This document shows, in pieces, positions 12,984 to 34,417 of a stretch of 40,515 nt of DNA. A program made the translations under genes and the position numbers. This stretch comes from Deltaproteobacteria bacterium (GTDB lineage Bacteria; Myxococcota_A; Polyangia; Polyangiales; Houyiibacteriaceae), in assembly GCA_013151775.1 (NCBI GenBank), contig JAADHO010000374.1, forward strand, positions 1 to 40,515, written 5' to 3'. Position 1 is the first letter of the stretch. Each line of letters begins with the position of its first letter. The notes below the pieces were generated by a model. It worked only from the letters and a program-made list of their open reading frames with translations. It made no database searches and was not told the origin of the DNA.

Positions 12984-13062
12984 GCTTGCCCGAGCCTACA
13001 CCGGGAAGCGGGCGGCGCGCCGAAAAGCCAGGCGCCCCTTGCGCGCTCCAGGGTCGTGCGCT

Positions 13063-13077
13063 ATTGGTAATACCAAT
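13063..13077. promoter_or_regulatory. PdhR/FadR-type operator 1
   Basis: ATTGGTAATACCAAT is a perfect 6+3+6 palindrome. It fits the TTGGTnnnACCAA core known for GntR/FadR-subfamily regulators such as PdhR. It ends 1 base inside the ATG of the GntR gene (13076). Confidence 0.8.
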
Positions 13078-13861
13078 GATTGGTGATACCAATTCCAAGA
13101 CTCGCGTGAAGCCCCGTCGTTCGGTCGCCGACGACACTACGGACCGGCTGCGACGCGCCATCCTCGATGGGCAATACCCCGTGGGCAGTCTGCTGCCGCC
13201 CGAGCGCGGCCTGTCGGAGAGCTTCGGGGTCAGCCGCCTGACCTTGCGCTCCGCCATCGCGCGTCTGCAGACGGAGGGCTTGGTTCGGCCACAGCAGGGC
13301 GCTGGCACGCGTGTGCTCGATTACCGCGCGAGCGCGGGCGTCGACCTGCTTGGGGACATGCTCGGGCTCTCCCTCTCTCGCGGCACGCTGCCCGCGGAGC
13401 TGTTGGCGGATCTGCTCGAGCTGCGTCGCATGTTGGCGGTGGAGGTGCTCGGCCTCGCCGCCGAGCGAGGCAGCGTCGAAGAGCATCGGGCGCTGCGTGA
13501 GCACGTCGCGCATCAGCGCACGCTGGTGGGTGACGCCGAGGCCTACGTGGAGGCGGATCTGAAGATGGCGCGCATGCTCGTCCGCGCGAGCCACAACGTG
13601 GCTCTGAGGTTGCTCTCCAACAGCTTGGTGCGCGTACTGAACGCCGCGCCGAGCCTGGCGCCGGCCTTTCTGGTCAACGCGGACGGTACCCTGCGCGCCT
13701 ACACGCGCCTGCTCGATCTGGTGGAGAGTCGAGACGGGGCGCGCGTGCGTGTGGAGGCGCGTCGCCTGCTCGAGCAGCTGGACGCGGACACCTTGGAGCG
13801 CGTGCGCGCGCTGTCGCCGGAGAGTCCGGCGGTGATGGAGCAAGCAGGAGAATCGACATGA
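13076..13861 (+). CDS. GntR-family (FadR/FCD subfamily) transcriptional regulator
   Basis: 261 residues from ATG 13076. GTG 13106 (VKPRRSV) is a possible later start that would leave both operators in the leader; neither start has a good ribosome binding site. The winged HTH spans residues 20-80: DRLRRAILDGQYPVGSLLPP, then ERGLSESFGVSRLTLRSAIA, then the wing GLVRPQQGAGTRVLD. The C-terminal all-helical ligand domain (about 100-245) is FCD-like (ELRRMLAVEVLGLAAERG; EADLKMARMLVRASHN). It probably represses its own cassette by binding the two ATTGGTnATACCAAT sites over its start and releases on binding a carboxylate or acyl ligand; the ligand is unknown. Its stop overlaps the next gene as ATGA, tying it to the oxidoreductase genes. 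Confidence 0.92.
   Translation: MIGDTNSKTRVKPRRSVADDTTDRLRRAILDGQYPVGSLLPPERGLSESFGVSRLTLRSAIARLQTEGLVRPQQGAGTRVLDYRASAGVDLLGDMLGLSLSRGTLPAELLADLLELRRMLAVEVLGLAAERGSVEEHRALREHVAHQRTLVGDAEAYVEADLKMARMLVRASHNVALRLLSNSLVRVLNAAPSLAPAFLVNADGTLRAYTRLLDLVESRDGARVRVEARRLLEQLDADTLERVRALSPESPAVMEQAGEST
13079..13093. promoter_or_regulatory. PdhR/FadR-type operator 2
   Basis: ATTGGTGATACCAAT repeats the arms of operator 1 with a different 3-base centre. The two palindromes are 16 bp apart centre to centre, so bound dimers would lie about one and a half helical turns apart. The site falls within the first codons if ATG 13076 is used. Confidence 0.8.
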
Positions 13862-14325
13862 GACTATTGAATCTGGAGCGTCGTCTGCTCGAGGCGACCT
13901 TGGCGGGTTTCGCGCCCGAGGGTGCGGCCACGGGGCTCTCGCCCTTGCCCGGAGAGATCGACTGGGGCGCGACCTTCCACGGCATGGCGGACGCCTCGAA
14001 CGGGCAGGCGAGGCTGGGCATGCGCGCGGCCATCTGGCTCGCGGGGCTCGCCCCCGTGTGGCTCGAGCGCCGGCCTCGCACGCTGCTCTCTCTCTCCGCC
14101 GAGGAGCGCGTGGCGCTGCTCGAGCGCCTGCTATCCCATCGCTCCTTCGCGGTGCGCGAGCTGACTCTGCTGCTGAAGCTGCAGGCCGCCTTCGCGCTCT
14201 TGGGTAGCGCCACGGCCCGCGCCCGCTCGGGCTATGACCGTGACCGCCCTGCGCCCGTGGAGCACCCCGATTCACGTCAGCGCCTGACCCTGGTGGACTC
14301 GAGCGCCCGAGGAGGCCGGTCATGA
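13858..14325 (+). CDS. Small protein paired with the GMC oxidoreductase (possible accessory subunit)
   Basis: 155 residues. Its ATG overlaps the GntR stop (ATGA, 13858-13861) and its own stop overlaps the GMC gene start (ATGA, 14322-14325), so it is sandwiched by translational coupling. The middle (residues 75-125) has the pattern LLSLSAEERVALLERLLSHR, then LLLKLQAAFALLGS, then GYDRD. This resembles small proteins encoded beside GMC oxidoreductases and, more loosely, gluconate-2-dehydrogenase subunit 3. There is no Tat signal or clear transmembrane helix. A role as a partner or chaperone of the flavoprotein is inferred from context only. Confidence 0.75.
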   Translation: MRLLNLERRLLEATLAGFAPEGAATGLSPLPGEIDWGATFHGMADASNGQARLGMRAAIWLAGLAPVWLERRPRTLLSLSAEERVALLERLLSHRSFAVRELTLLLKLQAAFALLGSATARARSGYDRDRPAPVEHPDSRQRLTLVDSSARGGRS

Positions 14326-15827
14326 GGCGCGAGACGCTGGATGAGGCCGACTTCGTGATCGTGGGCACGGGAGCCGGTGGCGCTACGGCGGCGCGTGTGC
14401 TCGCGGCCGCGGGCCACTCCCTCGTGATGCTCGAGGAGGGCGCCCGCCTGCGCACCTCGGAGCGACCTCGAGACGCCGCAGGCGCGCTCGCCCAGGCCAT
14501 GCGTGACGGCGGGACACAGGTCGCCTTCGGCAGCGCGCCCATGCCCCTGCTGCAGGGGCGCTGTGTGGGCGGCAGCACGGCCATCAACTCCGGCATCATC
14601 TGGCGCATGCCCGAGGACGTGGTCGAGGACTGGACCACGCGCTTCGGCTTGGGCGCGCTGGTCGCTCCCGAACTCACCGAGCCTATCTACGACCGCATCG
14701 AGCAGGAGCTCGAGATCACCCCTACGGGGGAGGACGTCCTCGGTGGCAACGGCCACGCCATGGCGCGCGGCGCCCAGGCCCTCGGCCTCCCGGGTCAGCC
14801 CATGCGGCGCAACGCGGGGCGCTGTCGTGGCAGCGGGGAGTGCCTGCAGGGATGCCCCGGCGAGCGTCGCCAGAGCATGGACGTGTCCTACGTCCCGCGG
14901 GCCCTCGCCGACGGAGCTCGGCTCCACACCCACGCCCGTGTGGAGCGCGTTCTGATCGAGCGTGGGCGCGCCGTCGGCGTGCGCGGGGTCAGGCTCGACC
15001 CCAGCACGGGTCGCCCCAGGGCGCGCTTCGAGGTGCGCGCGCGGCGTGGCGTGATCCTCTCGGCGGGCGTGATCCACACGCCGCTGATTCTGCTACGCAG
15101 CCGGGTGGCCGGACCCGTGGGCCGCCACTTTCAGTGCCACCCCGGCTCGGCTCTGCTCGGCCGCTTCGACGAGCCCATCCGCATGAGCTTCGGCGCCACT
15201 CAGGGCTATGAAGTGCCCATGCGCGAGCGAGGCTACAAGCTCGAGTCCCTGTCTCTCCCGCCCGAGATGTTGGCCGCGCGCATCCCTGGCACGGGCGCCG
15301 AGTGGCAGGAGCGCATCGCCTCCCTCGACCACTACGCCCAGTGGGCCGCCCAATCGCGCTTCGAGGCCCAGGGCCGCGTGCGGCTCGGCTTCGGCGGCGC
15401 GCCGTGGGTGCGTTACGAGCCCAGCGCGCGAGACATCGAGCAGCTGAAGGAGGGGCTCGTGTGGCTCGCGCGCATGATGTTCGAGGCCGGGGCACGGGAG
15501 GTCTATCCGGGCATCCACCACGTGCCCGAGGTGCTCCGCGGACCCGACGAGGTTCGGCTGCTCGAGCAGGCGCAGATCAGCCGAGCCGATCTGCATCTGA
15601 TGGCGTCGCATCTCTTCGGCACGGCGCGCGCCGGAGCCGATCCCGTGCGCAGCGTCGTCGGCCCGACGCTCGAAGCCCACAGCACACGCGCGCTCTACGT
15701 GATGGACGCCAGCGTCTTCCCGACCAACCTTGGTGTGAACCCCCAGCACTCGATCATGGCCGTCGTCTGGCGCGCCGCGGCCCAGCTCGCTGCTCAGGAC
15801 TCGGGTCGGGTTGCCCGCGCCGGATGA
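14322..15827 (+). CDS. GMC-family FAD-dependent oxidoreductase
   Basis: 501 residues from ATG 14322, with GGAGG 7 bases upstream. The FAD dinucleotide-binding motif VIVGTGAGG is at residues 12-20. The GMC signature-1 region GRCVGGSTAINSGIIWRMP is at 79-97, and the C-terminal catalytic region ends with NLGVNPQHSIMAVVWRAA, where His acts as the usual base. An unusual C-x5-C-x3-C cluster (C168, C174, C178 in GRCRGSGECLQGCPG) recalls the Cys cluster of long-chain alcohol oxidase-like and steroid-type GMC enzymes; it might bind a metal or an Fe-S centre. The likely reaction is oxidation of an alcohol or sterol-like substrate to the aldehyde or ketone; the substrate is unknown. It is the last gene of the GntR cassette and convergent with the lipoprotein gene 4 bp away. 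Confidence 0.92.
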   Translation: MRRETLDEADFVIVGTGAGGATAARVLAAAGHSLVMLEEGARLRTSERPRDAAGALAQAMRDGGTQVAFGSAPMPLLQGRCVGGSTAINSGIIWRMPEDVVEDWTTRFGLGALVAPELTEPIYDRIEQELEITPTGEDVLGGNGHAMARGAQALGLPGQPMRRNAGRCRGSGECLQGCPGERRQSMDVSYVPRALADGARLHTHARVERVLIERGRAVGVRGVRLDPSTGRPRARFEVRARRGVILSAGVIHTPLILLRSRVAGPVGRHFQCHPGSALLGRFDEPIRMSFGATQGYEVPMRERGYKLESLSLPPEMLAARIPGTGAEWQERIASLDHYAQWAAQSRFEAQGRVRLGFGGAPWVRYEPSARDIEQLKEGLVWLARMMFEAGAREVYPGIHHVPEVLRGPDEVRLLEQAQISRADLHLMASHLFGTARAGADPVRSVVGPTLEAHSTRALYVMDASVFPTNLGVNPQHSIMAVVWRAAAQLAAQDSGRVARAG

Positions 15828-26122: not shown

Positions 26123-27229
26123 ATGACCACCGCCCCCGAGCTCTCGCGCGCGCCTCTGTCTGGCGCCCCCTACTTCGCCGTCGAGTACGAGCCCGAGACG
26201 GGTGAGGTGGTGATGCTCGATCAGCGGCTCTTGCCCGCCGAGGTGGTCTATCATCGCCTGTCGACGCCCGATCAGGTGGCCGACGGAATCCGCGACATGA
26301 TCGTGCGCGGCGCGCCAGCCATCGGCGTCACGGCGGCCTACGCCTTGGTGCAGCTCGCGCGCACGCAAGACGGCGACGCCAAGAGCTTCTTGCTCGCCAA
26401 CGGCGCCGCCTCGCGCGTGCTCGACGCCACGCGTCCCACGGCCGTGAACCTCGCTTGGGCCATCGCCCGCATGTCACGCCGCGCCGCCGAGGTCGCCGCC
26501 CTCGCGCCCGTCGAGCGCTATCGGGCCATGCGCACCGAGGCCGAGGCGATTCACCGCGAGGACGTGGCGGCCTGTCGCGAGATGGGCCGGCTCGGCGCCC
26601 TCGACGTACCCGACGGCGCGACCATCCTCACCCACTGCAACGCGGGCGCCTTGGCGACGGGCGGCTACGGCTCGGCCCTCGGGGTGATCCGCGCCGCCGT
26701 GGAGGCGGGCAAGCGCGTGAAGGTGCTGGCCGACGAGACGCGACCCTACCTGCAGGGCGCGCGGCTGACCGCCTGGGAGCTTTTTCAGGACGGCATCGAC
26801 GTGGAGGTGATCACCGACAGCATGGCGGGGCATTTCTTCCAAAAAGGCGAGATCGACTTCGTCATCGTGGGCAGCGATCGGATCGCCAGGAACGGCGACG
26901 TGGCGAACAAGATCGGCACCTATGGCGTGGCCGTCTTGGCGCACGCCCACGACGTGCCCTTCGGCGTGGCGGCGCCCTTCAGCACCGTCGACATGGCCAT
27001 GCCAACGGGCGAGGGCATCCCCATCGAGCAGCGCTCGCGCGAGGAGGTCGCCCGGGTGGGTGATCGCCTGCTGGTGGCCGACGGGATCCCCTGCCGACAC
27101 CCCGCCTTCGACGTGACCCCCGCGCGCCTGGTGGACGCCATCTACACCGAGCGGGGCGTCGTGCGCCCGGCCCAGGGCGAGACCCTCGAGCTGCTCGCGG
27201 CTGATGCGCGGGGGCCCAGGGCTCGCTAG
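26123..27229 (+). CDS. mtnA: S-methyl-5-thioribose-1-phosphate isomerase
   Basis: 368 residues from ATG 26123, in line with the family (about 350). It isomerises 5-methylthioribose-1-phosphate to 5-methylthioribulose-1-phosphate in the methionine salvage pathway. Diagnostic motifs are [12 protein letters not shown] (62-73), the catalytic Cys172 in [14 protein letters not shown], and the catalytic Asp252 in [19 protein letters not shown]. The start sits after a 90-bp divergent gap; no recognisable SAM-type riboswitch is there. The 3' end overlaps the following FHA/transglutaminase gene by 26 bp if that gene starts at 27204. No other methionine-salvage genes are visible nearby. Confidence 0.96.
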
Positions 27230-28490
27230 ACTGGGACTGGAGGATTCCCTGGTCGCGCCTCGCGCTATTGTAATTGGTCGCTCCCGTGACTGTGATCTCG
27301 TCTACGGCGAGGCCACCGTCTCTGGCCACCACGCGCGCCTCGTCTGGCGTGGGCGCGCCCTGTGGATCGAAGACCTGGGCAGCGCCAACGGCACCCTAGT
27401 GCACGGCAAGCGCATTCGACGTGAGAGGATTCGCCCAGGCGACGAGGTGCTCCTGGGTCAGGCGCCCCTGCCTTGGTCGCGTCCCGAGCTGCGGCCCTTC
27501 CTGCGCGCGGGCGCCGGCGGAGACACCGTCGACGCCCTGTCCATCCCCGGGCGTCGCTTCATCTGTGGTTCGTGCGGCGTGCGCGGTGTCATGCCCTCGG
27601 GGTTTGCTGGCGGCGAGCTGAGCTGCGGCTCCTGCGGGGAGCAGCTGCGCGTGGGTCCGCCTCGGCGTCGGGGACGCTCGGGGTTCGCGCTGGCGCTGCT
27701 GGTGTTGCTGGTGGGCGGCGGTGTGACGCTCTGGGCCACCCGTGGCTTCGAGCGCGTGCGCGCGGTTCGGGAGGCGGTGAGAGCCCTGGGCGAGCGAGCC
27801 GGAGAGCAGGTCGGGACCGGAGCCGCGAGCCCCCAGGAGGCGTCCATTCGCGCCCACAGCAGCGACGCGGTGGTGGCGGCCTGGGATTCCACGACGCCGC
27901 TCACGCGCAACACGGCCGTGCAGTTCGCCGCGGGCGATCAGGGCCCCTACCACGTGGAGCAGGTCGCCCGGATCTGGAACGAGGTGCGCGGGCGCTGGCA
28001 CTACGTCAACGACCCTCGCGGTCAGGAATATTTCGCCCGCGCCAGCGAGAGCATCGCCAACGACTACGCCGGCGACTGCGACGACTTCGCCATCGTGCTC
28101 GCCGCCATGATCACCGCCATCGGAGGCGAGTCACGCGTGGTGATGATGGACGGCCCGGGCGGCGGCCACGCCTACACGGAGGCCTGCATTCGCGACGATC
28201 CCGACGCCGTGCGAGACCGACTCGCGACCTACTACCGAGACCACCGCGACGATCGCCTCGGCCGTCAGCGCCTGCGGGAGATCCACTACCGGCCCTCCGA
28301 GTCCTGTCCGGTCTGGCTGAACCTCGACTGGAACGCGGGCGTCCCCGGCGGAGACTACGAGGCCGAGGCCTGGGCCGTGGCCATCCACGCGGACGGCAGC
28401 ACGGAGACCTTGGCCCCCGCCGGCTTGCCCCCGAACATGGGTCACGCCACCGGGGCCATCCCCGAGTCTGCGTCTCCGGCGTCGCCCTGA
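27204..28490 (+). CDS. FHA - zinc ribbon - transmembrane - transglutaminase-like protein
   Basis: 428 residues if started at ATG 27204, inside the mtnA end. A GGAGG at 27239-27243 lies 5 bases before an in-frame CTG (27249), a possible rarer start. Residues 20-70 are an FHA domain ([23 protein letters not shown]). Residues 119-147 hold a Cys4 zinc ribbon (C121, C124, C141, C144). Residues 160-178 are a single transmembrane helix. The external part (about 235-420) is transglutaminase/cysteine-protease-like, with Cys292 in [13 protein letters not shown] and His322 in GGGHAY. FHA and ribbon would be cytoplasmic and the enzyme domain periplasmic, so the protein links phospho-dependent binding to an envelope enzyme. 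It may form an operon with the next three genes. Confidence 0.88.
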
Positions 28491-29083: not shown

Positions 29084-30007
29084 ATGGCCGGGGGTGAATT
29101 CGATTTTGGTGGTTTCGTGGCGTCGCGTGATAGGCGCGCAGGCGGCCACGAGGCGGGGCGCGTCGCCTACGCCTACGAGGGCGACCGGGCGATGCTGCGG
29201 ACGCTCTCCAAGATGCCGCCCATCACCCTCGCCGCCGCCGCCGTCGTGCGCATGTATAAGCGCTTCCTGAAGAACCAATACCTCGGCACCACCGTGCGCG
29301 TGTCCGAGCGTCAGTTTCCGCGCATCCACGCCATCGCCACGCGCTGCGCCGAGCGCCTCGAGGTGCAGGCGCCCACGCTCTACGTGGCCAACAGCCCCTT
29401 CCTCAACGCCTACACCTTCGGCACGCAGGAGGACTCCTTCATCGTCGTCCACTCGGCGCTGATCGATCACTTCACGGAGGCCGAGCTGACCTTCGTGATC
29501 GGCCACGAGACGGGCCACATCCAGAATCAGCACGTGGTCTACGGCACCTTGCTGCACGTGCTGCGCACCACGGCGTCGCTGCTCTTGCGCTGGATCTCGC
29601 CGCCCATCGAGGTGGCGCTCCTGGCCTGGTATCGGCGCGCGGAGATCACCTGCGATCGCGCGGGGCTCTTGTGCTGCGGCGACATCGAGGTGGCGACCAA
29701 GAGCTTCCTGAAGATGGCGACCGGGTCGCAGAAGCTCTACGCCGAGCTCGATGTCGAGGCGTATCTCTCGCAGCTCGAGGAGGGGCGCCGCGGCCTCGGG
29801 CGCTTCACCGAGGCCTTCGCCTCCCATCCCTACCTGCCGAAGCGCGTCTCGGCCTTGCGGCTCTTCACCGAGAGCGCCCTCTGCCGTGAGGCGCTCGCCC
29901 TGGGCGAGGGCGGGCTGAGCATGGAAGAGGTCGATGAGCGCACCCGCGACATCATCCAGATCTTGAAATCCGGGGCAGAGAAGCCCGCAGCAGAGAGCGA
30001 GTCATGA
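29084..30007 (+). CDS. M48-family zinc metalloprotease
   Basis: 307 residues from ATG 29084; no good ribosome binding site, so the first 40 residues are uncertain. The zinc site is HETGH at 141-145 with the third ligand E187 (RRAEITCDRAG), the M48 (HtpX/Ste24/Oma1-like) pattern. A segment at about 155-185 is hydrophobic enough to lie in or on the membrane, but the four-helix layout of HtpX is absent, so this is one of the soluble or peripheral M48 proteins often called M48 family peptidase. The stop overlaps the next gene's ATG (ATGA, 30004-30007). This strongly suggests it works with, or at the same site as, the dynamin-like GTPase, perhaps in inner-membrane quality control. That role is inference. 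Confidence 0.92.
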   Translation: MAGGEFDFGGFVASRDRRAGGHEAGRVAYAYEGDRAMLRTLSKMPPITLAAAAVVRMYKRFLKNQYLGTTVRVSERQFPRIHAIATRCAERLEVQAPTLYVANSPFLNAYTFGTQEDSFIVVHSALIDHFTEAELTFVIGHETGHIQNQHVVYGTLLHVLRTTASLLLRWISPPIEVALLAWYRRAEITCDRAGLLCCGDIEVATKSFLKMATGSQKLYAELDVEAYLSQLEEGRRGLGRFTEAFASHPYLPKRVSALRLFTESALCREALALGEGGLSMEEVDERTRDIIQILKSGAEKPAAESES

Positions 30008-31755
30008 CCTCGAACCACGACGATTCCGCCGCGACCGATTGGGCCGCAAGCAAGCATGAGGCGCTGACGAACCTGCGCGAGCTGGCGAGCCTGGCCGCCG
30101 AGTCCGGCGCCGGGACGCTGTCGAGCAGTCTGCGCGAGGACCGCATCCCGCGCCTCGAGGCCGAGCGCCTGCACCTGGTCGTGCTCGGTGAGTTCAACCA
30201 CGGCAAGACCACGCTGGTGAACGCGCTGCTCGGCGCGCGCGTCTTGCCCATGGGCGTGACGCCGACGACGGCCATGATCCACCGCATCGTCTACGCGGAG
30301 CAGGCGGGCGCCCGGCTCTTGCTGGACAATGGCGAGCAGGGCGAGGAGCTAGGTCTCGAAGGTCTCGCGAAGCTCACCGTCGAGGGAGGCGGCGCGGGCG
30401 ACGCGCAGGAGGTGCTGGTGCGCTACCCGGCGCCGCTGCTCGAGCGCGGCCTGGTGCTGGTCGACACGCCCGGGGTGAACGATCTCGAGGACGCGCGCGC
30501 CGAGGTGACCTATGGCTACGTGCCGCGCGCCGACGCCGTGCTCTTCCTGCTCGACGCGGGCCAGATCCTGAAGGAGAGCGAGCGCGCATTCCTCGAACAT
30601 CGCCTGGTGAAGCAGGCGCGAGGTCGCGTGTTCTTCTTGGTCAACAAGCTCGACGTGCTCGACGAAGACGAGCAGCGCGAGGCCCTGGCCTACGCGCGCA
30701 CCAACCTCGCGCGCTGGGTCGACGAGCCGCGGGTCTGGGGCATCAGCGCCGAGCAGGCTCTGGAGGGCGACGGTGAGTCTTCGGGGCTCGACGCCTTCGT
30801 GACGGAGCTGCAGAGCTGGCTCGCGGACGAGCGCCTACCCCTGCTGCTGACCCGCGCCCGGGCCGCCGGTCGAGAGGCCCTCGCGTCTCTGCGCACGGGG
30901 CTCGAGGTGCAGCGCACGGCCCTGGCCATGGAGCAAGATGAACTCTCGCGTCGCCTCGACCTCTTCGAGTCGGATCTCGAGGCCTCGTCCGAACGCGTGG
31001 AGGCGCGCGAGCGTGCGCTGGGCGAGTCCCTCGCCGCCGTGAAGGCCGTGGTGCGCGAAGACCTCGAGCGCTTCGCCGAGCGCTTCGCCGCCGCCCTGCC
31101 CGACGAGATCGAGTCGAGTCAGGCGACGGACTTGCGGCGCTACCTCGCGGGCTTCATCGAGCAGAAGCTGCGCGAGCAGGTGGAGGACGAGGCCGAGGAG
31201 GTGGCGCATCGCCTCGAGCGCGTGGCCGACGAGGCCGTGGCCTTCGTGACGGAAGAGGCCCACGCCCGTGCCGAGCGCTTCCGCGGATCCCTCGGTGACG
31301 ACGCGCCCGCGCTGGATCTCGACGTCGACACCTTGGCCTACGACGTGGGCGTGTTCGCGGTGGGCGCGGTGGGCGTGACTCTGATGGTGCTCTCCAACGT
31401 GCTGCTCGGCGGCGCCATGACCCTGGCCGCGCCCGTGCTCGCCTACGTGCTGCGCGGCAAGAAGGACGAGCGCGTGAAGGAGCGCGCCAAGGAGGAGGCG
31501 CCCGCGCTGGTGCGTCAGGCGACGCAGAAGGTCATCGAGGCCTTCGAGGCGCGCATCGACGACTTCGGGCAGCGCCTGCGCGACTTCCTCACCCAAGCCG
31601 ACGACGAGACCCGCCGCTCGATCCTCGAGCTGGTCGGGGCCGCCAAGCGCGCGCAGGGTGAAGGCGCCGAAGGCCGCCTCGCCCTGCAAGAGCGCATCGA
31701 CACGAGCCTGGCGCGGGTCGCCGAGATCGAGCCGAAGTTCAACGCCGAGAGCTGA
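30004..31755 (+). CDS. Bacterial dynamin-like GTPase
   Basis: 583 residues. The ATG overlaps the M48 stop. GTPase motifs: G1 GEFNHGKTT at 62-70, a G2 Thr in GVTPTT (about 85-90), G3 DTPG at 154-157, G4 NKLD at 214-217. The G1 form GEFNxGKS/T is typical of dynamin-family rather than Era/Ras GTPases. Long helical, heptad-like stalk segments follow (about 285-440 and 485-580), separated by a hydrophobic hairpin at about 448-483 that should act as the membrane paddle (VGVFAVGAVGVTLMVLSNVL and on). Expected to bind and reshape or fuse the inner membrane upon GTP hydrolysis. Bacterial dynamins often occur in pairs; here only one is present, next to a metalloprotease gene. It is convergent with the membrane-protein gene at 31775. 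Confidence 0.93.
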   Translation: MTSNHDDSAATDWAASKHEALTNLRELASLAAESGAGTLSSSLREDRIPRLEAERLHLVVLGEFNHGKTTLVNALLGARVLPMGVTPTTAMIHRIVYAEQAGARLLLDNGEQGEELGLEGLAKLTVEGGGAGDAQEVLVRYPAPLLERGLVLVDTPGVNDLEDARAEVTYGYVPRADAVLFLLDAGQILKESERAFLEHRLVKQARGRVFFLVNKLDVLDEDEQREALAYARTNLARWVDEPRVWGISAEQALEGDGESSGLDAFVTELQSWLADERLPLLLTRARAAGREALASLRTGLEVQRTALAMEQDELSRRLDLFESDLEASSERVEARERALGESLAAVKAVVREDLERFAERFAAALPDEIESSQATDLRRYLAGFIEQKLREQVEDEAEEVAHRLERVADEAVAFVTEEAHARAERFRGSLGDDAPALDLDVDTLAYDVGVFAVGAVGVTLMVLSNVLLGGAMTLAAPVLAYVLRGKKDERVKERAKEEAPALVRQATQKVIEAFEARIDDFGQRLRDFLTQADDETRRSILELVGAAKRAQGEGAEGRLALQERIDTSLARVAEIEPKFNAES

Positions 31756-33770: not shown

Positions 33771-34004
33771 ATGGGGCAGCTCATCGTTCGAAACATCGAG
33801 GACGAGATCGTGCAGGCGCTGAAGCGCCGCGCCGCGAAGCAGGGGCGATCCGCGGAGGCAGAGCACAGGGAGATCTTGCGTCAGGCGCTGGCTGATGAGC
33901 GCAAACGTCCCTCATTCAAACGTTTCCTCGAATCCATGCCTGACGTGGGAGAGGACGAGGACTTCTGCGTCCCGCGCGGCATGCCGAGGGAGCCGGATCT
34001 TTGA
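33771..34004 (+). CDS. fitA: FitA-like ribbon-helix-helix antitoxin
   Basis: 77 residues from ATG 33771, with a textbook AGGAGGT at 33759-33765 (5-base gap). The N-terminus LIVRNIEDEIVQALKRRAAK, then QGRSAEAEHREIL, is the FitA ribbon-helix-helix pattern (VIRNL...LKxRAxxxGRSxEAExRxIL). The C-terminal part (about 50-77) is an acidic/Pro-rich tail that should insert into the toxin active site. It neutralises the PIN toxin and, as a complex, represses the promoter at the upstream palindrome. Its stop overlaps the toxin start (TTGA, 34001-34004). Confidence 0.88.
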   Translation: MGQLIVRNIEDEIVQALKRRAAKQGRSAEAEHREILRQALADERKRPSFKRFLESMPDVGEDEDFCVPRGMPREPDL

Positions 34005-34417
34005 GCTACCTGCTCGACACGAACGTGCTGTCGGAGCTACGCAAGGCGGAGCGGGCGGATGCGAACGTGCGTGCATGGTTTGCCCAGGCGAAGGAGCGAG
34101 AACTCTTCACCAGCGTCTTGGTACATGGCGAGATCAGGCGTGGCGTGGAGTTGCTGAGACGCCGAGATGAGGTCGCCGCCCTGGCGCTCGACCACTGGCT
34201 GAGCAGGCTTCAAGAGACGTTCGCCGATCGCGTGCTGGACGTCGACGTGGACGTCGCGGAGTGCTGGGCGAGGCTGAGCGTGCCGGATCCGGTTCCGGTC
34301 GTCGACGGACTGCTCGCCGCGACCGCCCTGGTGCATGGCCTGACGCTGGTCACGCGCAACCTGAAAGATGTTGTTCGGACGGGTGTGCCCGTGCTCGATC
34401 CTTTCTGCCCAGATTGA
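34001..34417 (+). CDS. fitB: FitB/VapC-like PIN-domain ribonuclease toxin
   Basis: 138 residues from TTG 34001, overlapping the antitoxin stop by 4 bp, which fixes the start. The PIN-domain metal ligands are all present: D6 (LLDTNVLSEL), E44 (VHGEIRRG), D102 (VVDGLLAATA) and D123 with N120 (TRNLKDV). The length is normal for FitB/VapC (about 130-140). It should be a Mg-dependent RNase held inactive by the antitoxin. The pair lies between the two lipoprotein cassettes, directly after the tandem repeat, so it probably arrived with, or stabilises, this lower-GC patch. Confidence 0.92.
   Translation: MSYLLDTNVLSELRKAERADANVRAWFAQAKERELFTSVLVHGEIRRGVELLRRRDEVAALALDHWLSRLQETFADRVLDVDVDVAECWARLSVPDPVPVVDGLLAATALVHGLTLVTRNLKDVVRTGVPVLDPFCPD

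Follow-up and report, generated by a model that had tools for sequence, protein, structure and literature searches.

The window, by which we mean the whole 40,515-nucleotide stretch of DNA analysed, carries a gene for an M48 metallopeptidase-fold protein that runs directly into the gene of a bacterial dynamin. This raises the question of whether the two proteins work together and, if they do, whether the M48 protein serves the dynamin as a protease or as a partner of another kind. The host genome assembly comprises 6.05 Mb in 460 contigs, and among named genomes its closest relatives belong to the Myxococcota, several carrying the title Sandaracinus or Sandaracinaceae. The M48 reading frame ends with TGA at 30005–30007 and the dynamin frame starts with ATG at 30004; the shared ATGA of the original prediction is thus confirmed, with both coordinates and Pfam families in agreement. 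The pair has the following features.

29084–30007, + strand: M48 metallopeptidase-fold protein, 307 residues, active site intact (open reading frame; PF01435, E = 7.3e-26)
29096–29173, + strand: N-terminal segment of the M48 protein, residues 5–30 (D7 F8 .. R15 .. Y29 A30), characteristic of M48 proteins linked to a dynamin
29504–29518, + strand: HETGH zinc-binding/catalytic motif, H141, E142 and H145 (sequence and alignments)
29642–29644, + strand: third zinc ligand, E187, within RRAEITCDRAG (alignments)
30004–30007, + strand: ATGA stop/start overlap of the M48 and dynamin genes (sequence)
30004–31755, + strand: dynamin-like GTPase, 583 residues, mitofusin/IniA/BDLP type by predicted fold (open reading frame; PF00350, E = 4.4e-25)
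30187–30210, + strand: P-loop GEFNHGKT, residues 62–69; residues 62–68 do not vary among the 20 aligned relatives and residue 69 is T or S
30463–30474, + strand: G3 motif DTPG, residues 154–157, unchanged in all 20 aligned relatives
31351–31452, + strand: hydrophobic paddle-like segment of the dynamin, residues 450–483 (Kyte–Doolittle 19-residue maximum of 2.26 at residues 450–468)

Taken alone, the 4 bp overlap is not remarkable, and two others occur in the same window (13858–13861 and 14322–14325). Nor is it conserved: among 109 distinct paired loci, a candidate dynamin start overlaps the M48 stop by 4 bp in 35, lies within 60 bp of it in 40 and is farther away in 34. The proposal that the overlap forces near-equal translation of the two proteins therefore finds no support. 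No sigma-70-like site was found, nor a + strand terminator just after 31755, which is uninformative for a GC-rich genome. The same strand carries, upstream of the pair, an FHA domain joined to a transglutaminase-like domain (27204–28490, +). Elsewhere in the window, genes for a GntR/FCD regulator, a 155-residue protein without a Pfam match and a GMC oxidoreductase are chained by 4 bp overlaps (12986–15827, +), and a PIN-domain protein (34001–34417, +; PF01850, E = 6.8e-13) is possibly a VapC-like toxin.

The M48 protein scores 91.6 bits against Peptidase_M48 (cut-off 20.3), which places it in the M48 family, and it combines the HEXXH motif with a downstream glutamate ligand. The solved folds nearest to its AlphaFold model (pLDDT 82.8) are 3c37 (Z = 11.6), BepA (6ait; Z = 11.3) and ZMPSTE24 (6bh8; Z = 11.1). 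The NCBIfam equivalog cut-offs for HtpX were missed (best 49.2 bits against 341), as were those for BepA (16.6 of 570 bits) and LoiP (19.1 of 365 bits); by these scores the protein is nearer to HtpX than to BepA or LoiP, passing none of the cut-offs. A 19-residue hydrophobic stretch above 1.6 is absent (maximum 1.22) and is present in 20 of the 109 paired M48 proteins. No signal peptide is apparent in either the M48 protein or the dynamin, and both are probably located on the cytoplasmic face.

The dynamin belongs to the dynamin superfamily by its Dynamin_N score (89.1 bits; cut-off 27). In sequence it matches BDLP (2j68; E = 1.3e-39), Cj-DLP (5owv; 3.2e-29), IniA (6j72; 2.9e-21) and MFN2 (1.2e-11). 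Its predicted structure matches MFN1 (5yew; Z = 26.9 over 323 residues), IniA (6j72; Z = 23.7 over 500 residues) and BDLP (2j69; Z = 21.4 over 512 residues), a mitofusin/IniA/BDLP-type fold that extends over the GTPase domain plus the helical stalk. These sequence and model comparisons suggest that it belongs with the fusion/tether type, which includes BDLP, Cj-DLP, IniA, mitofusin and Fzo1. OPA1/Mgm1 has no row among the sequence and fold matches listed, an absence that is no exclusion. The NCBIfam cut-offs for DynA (NF052648; 91.2 of 1600 bits) and LeoA (NF041922; 27.8 of 325 bits) were missed. From its hydrophobicity, the paddle-like segment is likely to insert into the membrane. The GTPase motifs are kept across the examined set of 127 dynamin frames, with a P-loop in all 127 and a DTPG-type motif in 124.

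The adjacency of the two genes is not peculiar to this genome. A scan of named genomes returned 253 loci, and in 77 of the best 80, which were kept, the M48 gene lies directly upstream of the dynamin gene on the same strand. Three named loci have no adjacent M48 gene: the sequence of one starts at the dynamin, with nothing upstream present (L089), and the other two, the true losses of adjacency, have the M48 ortholog elsewhere in the genome (L033 and L075). Culturable carriers of the pair include Sorangium and Polyangium strains. Of 57 relatives, 26 gave a strong match to the dynamin (best E no higher than 2.7e-95), and exactly those genomes gave a strong M48 profile match (at most 3.4e-131; next M48 match 4.5e-49), so that the two genes have identical presence (26) and absence (31). 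All but one of the 26 pair-bearing relatives have the M48 gene immediately upstream in the same orientation (25 genomes); the exception, G010, has it on another contig. Across the phylum, 65 of 283 genomes contain a dynamin with an E value under 1e-70. Counted by hand, 60 of these have the M48 gene adjacent, one carries it on another contig (G078), and in four the locus is truncated or cannot be judged at a contig end (G179, G188, G275 and G288). This adjacency is far beyond chance, and together with the identical pattern of presence and absence it upholds the functional link between the proteins that the original prediction had put forward, which thus withstands the refuting condition it had set for itself. 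By contrast, the commonest gene family upstream of the M48 gene accounts for only 8 of 74 loci. Downstream of the dynamin the commonest is a second dynamin, present in 10 of 68. The flanking genes turn over; it is the pair itself that selection maintains.

The two proteins were found as separate chains throughout: searches with both profiles gave no M48–dynamin fusion among 1831 open reading frames of at least 300 residues in 234 loci. A second recurrent neighbour family, from single-linkage clustering that may have produced a mixed cluster, occurs in 35 of the 80 named loci, on both strands and at varied distance, and an example of it (L036:22-456) resembles a small GTPase. Outside Myxococcota, a plasmid collection alone was searched, which is too little to call the pair absent there. 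In it, 12 records contain relatives of the M48 protein and six contain relatives of the dynamin. Four annotated plasmid M48 regions have no dynamin product beside the M48 gene, a fifth, unannotated region gives no match to the dynamin profile along its length and the one dynamin record examined has no M48 annotated in its stretch.

The M48 active site bears on the kind of link. Four catalytic positions were read in an alignment of 138 distinct M48 proteins, comprising 109 paired with a dynamin, 25 from outside the pair and four clade members apart from the dynamin. The active site is intact in all 25 homologues outside the pair (20 Myxococcota paralogues and five plasmid-borne relatives) and in 82 of the 109 paired proteins. 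The other 27 paired proteins lack HEXXH and/or the third zinc ligand, a number that describes breadth and not frequency, as the named loci are the top 80 of 253 and a further 40 regions were hand-picked to take in other families. The clade members apart from the dynamin are the intact moved copy of G010 (L173) and three degenerate proteins (L176, L206 and L207; one moved, two near contig ends). Single changes that keep all zinc ligands are HQxxH in the close relatives L193 and L194 (both HQLGH, with the E to Q change only), HAxxH in L110 and HHxxH in L162; most of the active site is gone in L165 and L204, and the M48 protein of L064 is likewise strongly degenerate. Cleft residues lost in degenerate copies include Q77, N108, H141, E142, E187, H248 and P249. 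The window's own clade keeps the active site in 59 of 59 rows. When the M48 state is mapped onto a quick tree of all 109 dynamins, a minimum of 11 changes is required, seven of them forced by strongly supported branches, or 13 if only one-way losses are counted; a careful tree of 37 dynamins gives eight (bootstrap range 8–9), with seven forced by starred branches. The active site has thus been lost repeatedly, in at least 7–8 separate changes, with the pair kept. Since it has gone in several lineages while the pair stays, the M48 protein probably acts as the dynamin's partner and not simply as the protease that cuts it. A proteolytic role is possible in the window's clade; with every row there keeping the full active site, selection for proteolysis is clear, and this may be the chief function.

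The original prediction had drawn a parallel to mitochondria, where the M48 protease Oma1 acts on the dynamin OPA1. A switch of this kind, in which the M48 protein would cleave the dynamin and so change its activity or amount, is unlikely. It would suit the tight operon, the probable cytoplasmic-face location of both proteins and the intact M48 protein of the window and its whole clade, but the pair persists where the M48 protein is catalytically degenerate, and the dynamin shows no cleavage-site signature where catalysis is lost. Just four dynamin columns, all mild, differ between intact and degenerate loci (a clade of 12 and 13 loci, respectively), none suggesting a lost site. The dynamin is mitofusin/IniA-like, with mitofusin, Fzo1, IniA, Cj-DLP and BDLP nearest to it and OPA1-type proteins not among the relatives listed, and the M48 scores lean towards HtpX. 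The topology differs as well, with OMA1 and OPA1 in the intermembrane space and the Myxococcota pair probably in the bacterial cytoplasm. The parallel is accordingly weak; what the systems have in common is an M48 protein linked with a dynamin-family protein.

It is also improbable that the genes are only co-regulated, with the M48 protein acting in membrane-protein quality control and the dynamin in membrane repair, the two being co-expressed under envelope stress without contact. Relatives of the HtpX type, which gives the M48 protein its nearest NCBIfam scores, carry out membrane quality control, and bacterial dynamins, those of the IniA type among them, function under membrane stress. Co-regulation nevertheless leaves unexplained both the retention of M48 proteins without an active site and the exact co-presence (26 of 26) and co-absence (31) of the genes. 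A LeoABC-type system for defence against phages, with the M48 protein as one component, is very unlikely: the PADLOC LeoA profile matches the dynamin (E = 3e-21), but the M48 protein has no PADLOC match, the LeoA NCBIfam cut-off is missed as given above, presence follows lineage and neighbours differ from locus to locus.

The degenerate M48 copies stay full-length. Their dN/dS, obtained by a simple counting method without error bars, is 0.16–0.69 in nine pairs, compared with 0.03–0.64 in nine intact pairs. For the N-terminal segment, the mean top-residue frequency is 0.58 across 23 degenerate clade members and 0.45 across 83 intact ones, a count that leaves out seven strongly diverged members (L152–L157 and L161) of the 30 degenerate; its occupancy is 0.2 in the 25 M48 proteins outside the pair. 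The N-terminal helix has low confidence in the AlphaFold model, which might fit a segment that folds on a partner. As two of the nine degenerate pairs have a high dN/dS (0.66 and 0.69; the others 0.16–0.50) and the C-terminal SHP region is often absent, some degenerate copies may be decaying. That the degenerate genes in general are decaying, and persist as passengers because they couple translation to the dynamin gene, would agree with those two pairs and with the overlap or close spacing of the genes in many loci but is hardly tenable in view of full-length frames over long divergence, the lower dN/dS of the other pairs, an N-terminal segment whose conservation exceeds that of intact copies and a degenerate copy (L176) kept after moving away from the dynamin with a dN/dS of 0.17.

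Some loci contain further dynamins. Around the window pair, six open reading frames were scanned with Dynamin_N and only the dynamin matched; all further PF00350 matches of the genome fall on contigs other than the window's. Elsewhere, a second dynamin is present in 28 of 80 informative paired loci. It occurs in 18 of 20 degenerate and ten of 60 intact loci, but these are raw counts and we do not claim a tie to M48 degeneration, a tree-aware independent-pairs test being not significant. In other Myxococcota families the locus order is M48–dynamin–dynamin, with a TPR–dynamin fusion as the second dynamin (one example searched, L064:7490-10669, + strand, about 1000 residues; similar in other loci), and in L158 and L159 it is dynamin–M48–dynamin. 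In the strongly diverged loci L152–L157 and L161 the M48 and dynamin genes are 1.0–1.4 kb apart, and in three examined loci a protein of 441–473 residues lies between them (L153:4280-5602, L154:3731-5149 and L155:3484-4836). This protein has no Pfam match (two members searched). In an alignment of three members it matches the dynamin profile from past the P-loop, over 315 columns, at a probability of 90 percent (E = 1.5e-6), and so resembles a diverged dynamin, perhaps a pseudo-GTPase.

The reading that we prefer, at a probability of about 0.5, is a two-gene Myxococcota module in which the M48 fold is an obligate partner of the dynamin, with binding or assembly as its core job and proteolysis as a lineage-dependent extra. 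The phylum-wide linkage, the co-occurrence in 57 relatives, the repeated catalytic loss and the continued constraint are its established part. In the proposed mechanism, the cytoplasmic M48-fold protein and the mitofusin/IniA/BDLP-type dynamin would be made from one operon. The M48 protein would bind the dynamin, or its two-dynamin complex, via parts of its surface away from the active site, among them probably the conserved N-terminal helix, and would act as an assembly factor or adaptor in the assembly or placement of the membrane-bound GTPase. Proteolysis would be retained in the window's clade, where the M48 protein may serve at the membrane to trim or clear either the dynamin or a client; lineages with a degenerate M48 protein would be left with the binding role alone. 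We see roughly even odds that, across Myxococcota, the dynamin and the M48-fold subunit form one machine, the subunit having turned from protease to non-catalytic cofactor many times independently.

By analogy, the M48 protein may follow the model of BepA, in which, according to the available text of PMC8423444, one M48 fold combines assisting (chaperone-like) and degrading functions. The same text describes a protease-dead E137Q form with weakened chaperone-like activity, so assisting and cutting roles need not separate cleanly. BepA has its fold in common with the window protein but differs in being periplasmic, in its TPR domain and in acting on LptD, and its NCBIfam cut-off is far from reached (see above). 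Sugar-beet RF1-Oma1 is a natural M48 protein in which HQVGH replaces HEXXH and which binds a partner protein (PMC6894571, in the part available); it may be compared with HQLGH in L193 and L194, and differs as a plant mitochondrial fertility restorer with no dynamin link.

Mycobacterial IniA and cyanobacterial BDLP resemble the window dynamin in sequence and, over most of the chain, in predicted fold; we know of no M48 partner of either. The heterotypic dynamin pair Cj-DLP1/2, encoded in paired operons, likewise has a dynamin in an operon with a partner (available text of PMC6104087). The window differs in having no adjacent second dynamin and in its M48-fold partner, of which that text makes no mention; the loci of other Myxococcota families hold the M48 gene plus two dynamins, the second of them the TPR–dynamin fusion. 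The literature covered, mostly papers available without subscription, describes no M48–dynamin gene pair or bacterial M48 pseudoprotease. Bacterial dynamin operons are themselves already known (PMC6104087, in the part available), and what is new here is one with an M48 (pseudo)protease partner.

These results caution against treating the M48–dynamin link as a counterpart of Oma1–OPA1. Bacterial dynamins are known in operon pairs, and a partner fixed across a phylum offers a direct handle on what else controls them. Natural catalytic loss separates binding from cutting without a mutant, and intact and degenerate members can be compared directly. If the preferred reading is true, Myxococcota would possess a bacterial M48 pseudoprotease family that builds or controls a membrane-remodelling GTPase, and the shift from cutting a substrate to holding a partner would have been caught at stages, from the E to Q change only, through loss of one ligand, to loss of the whole cleft.
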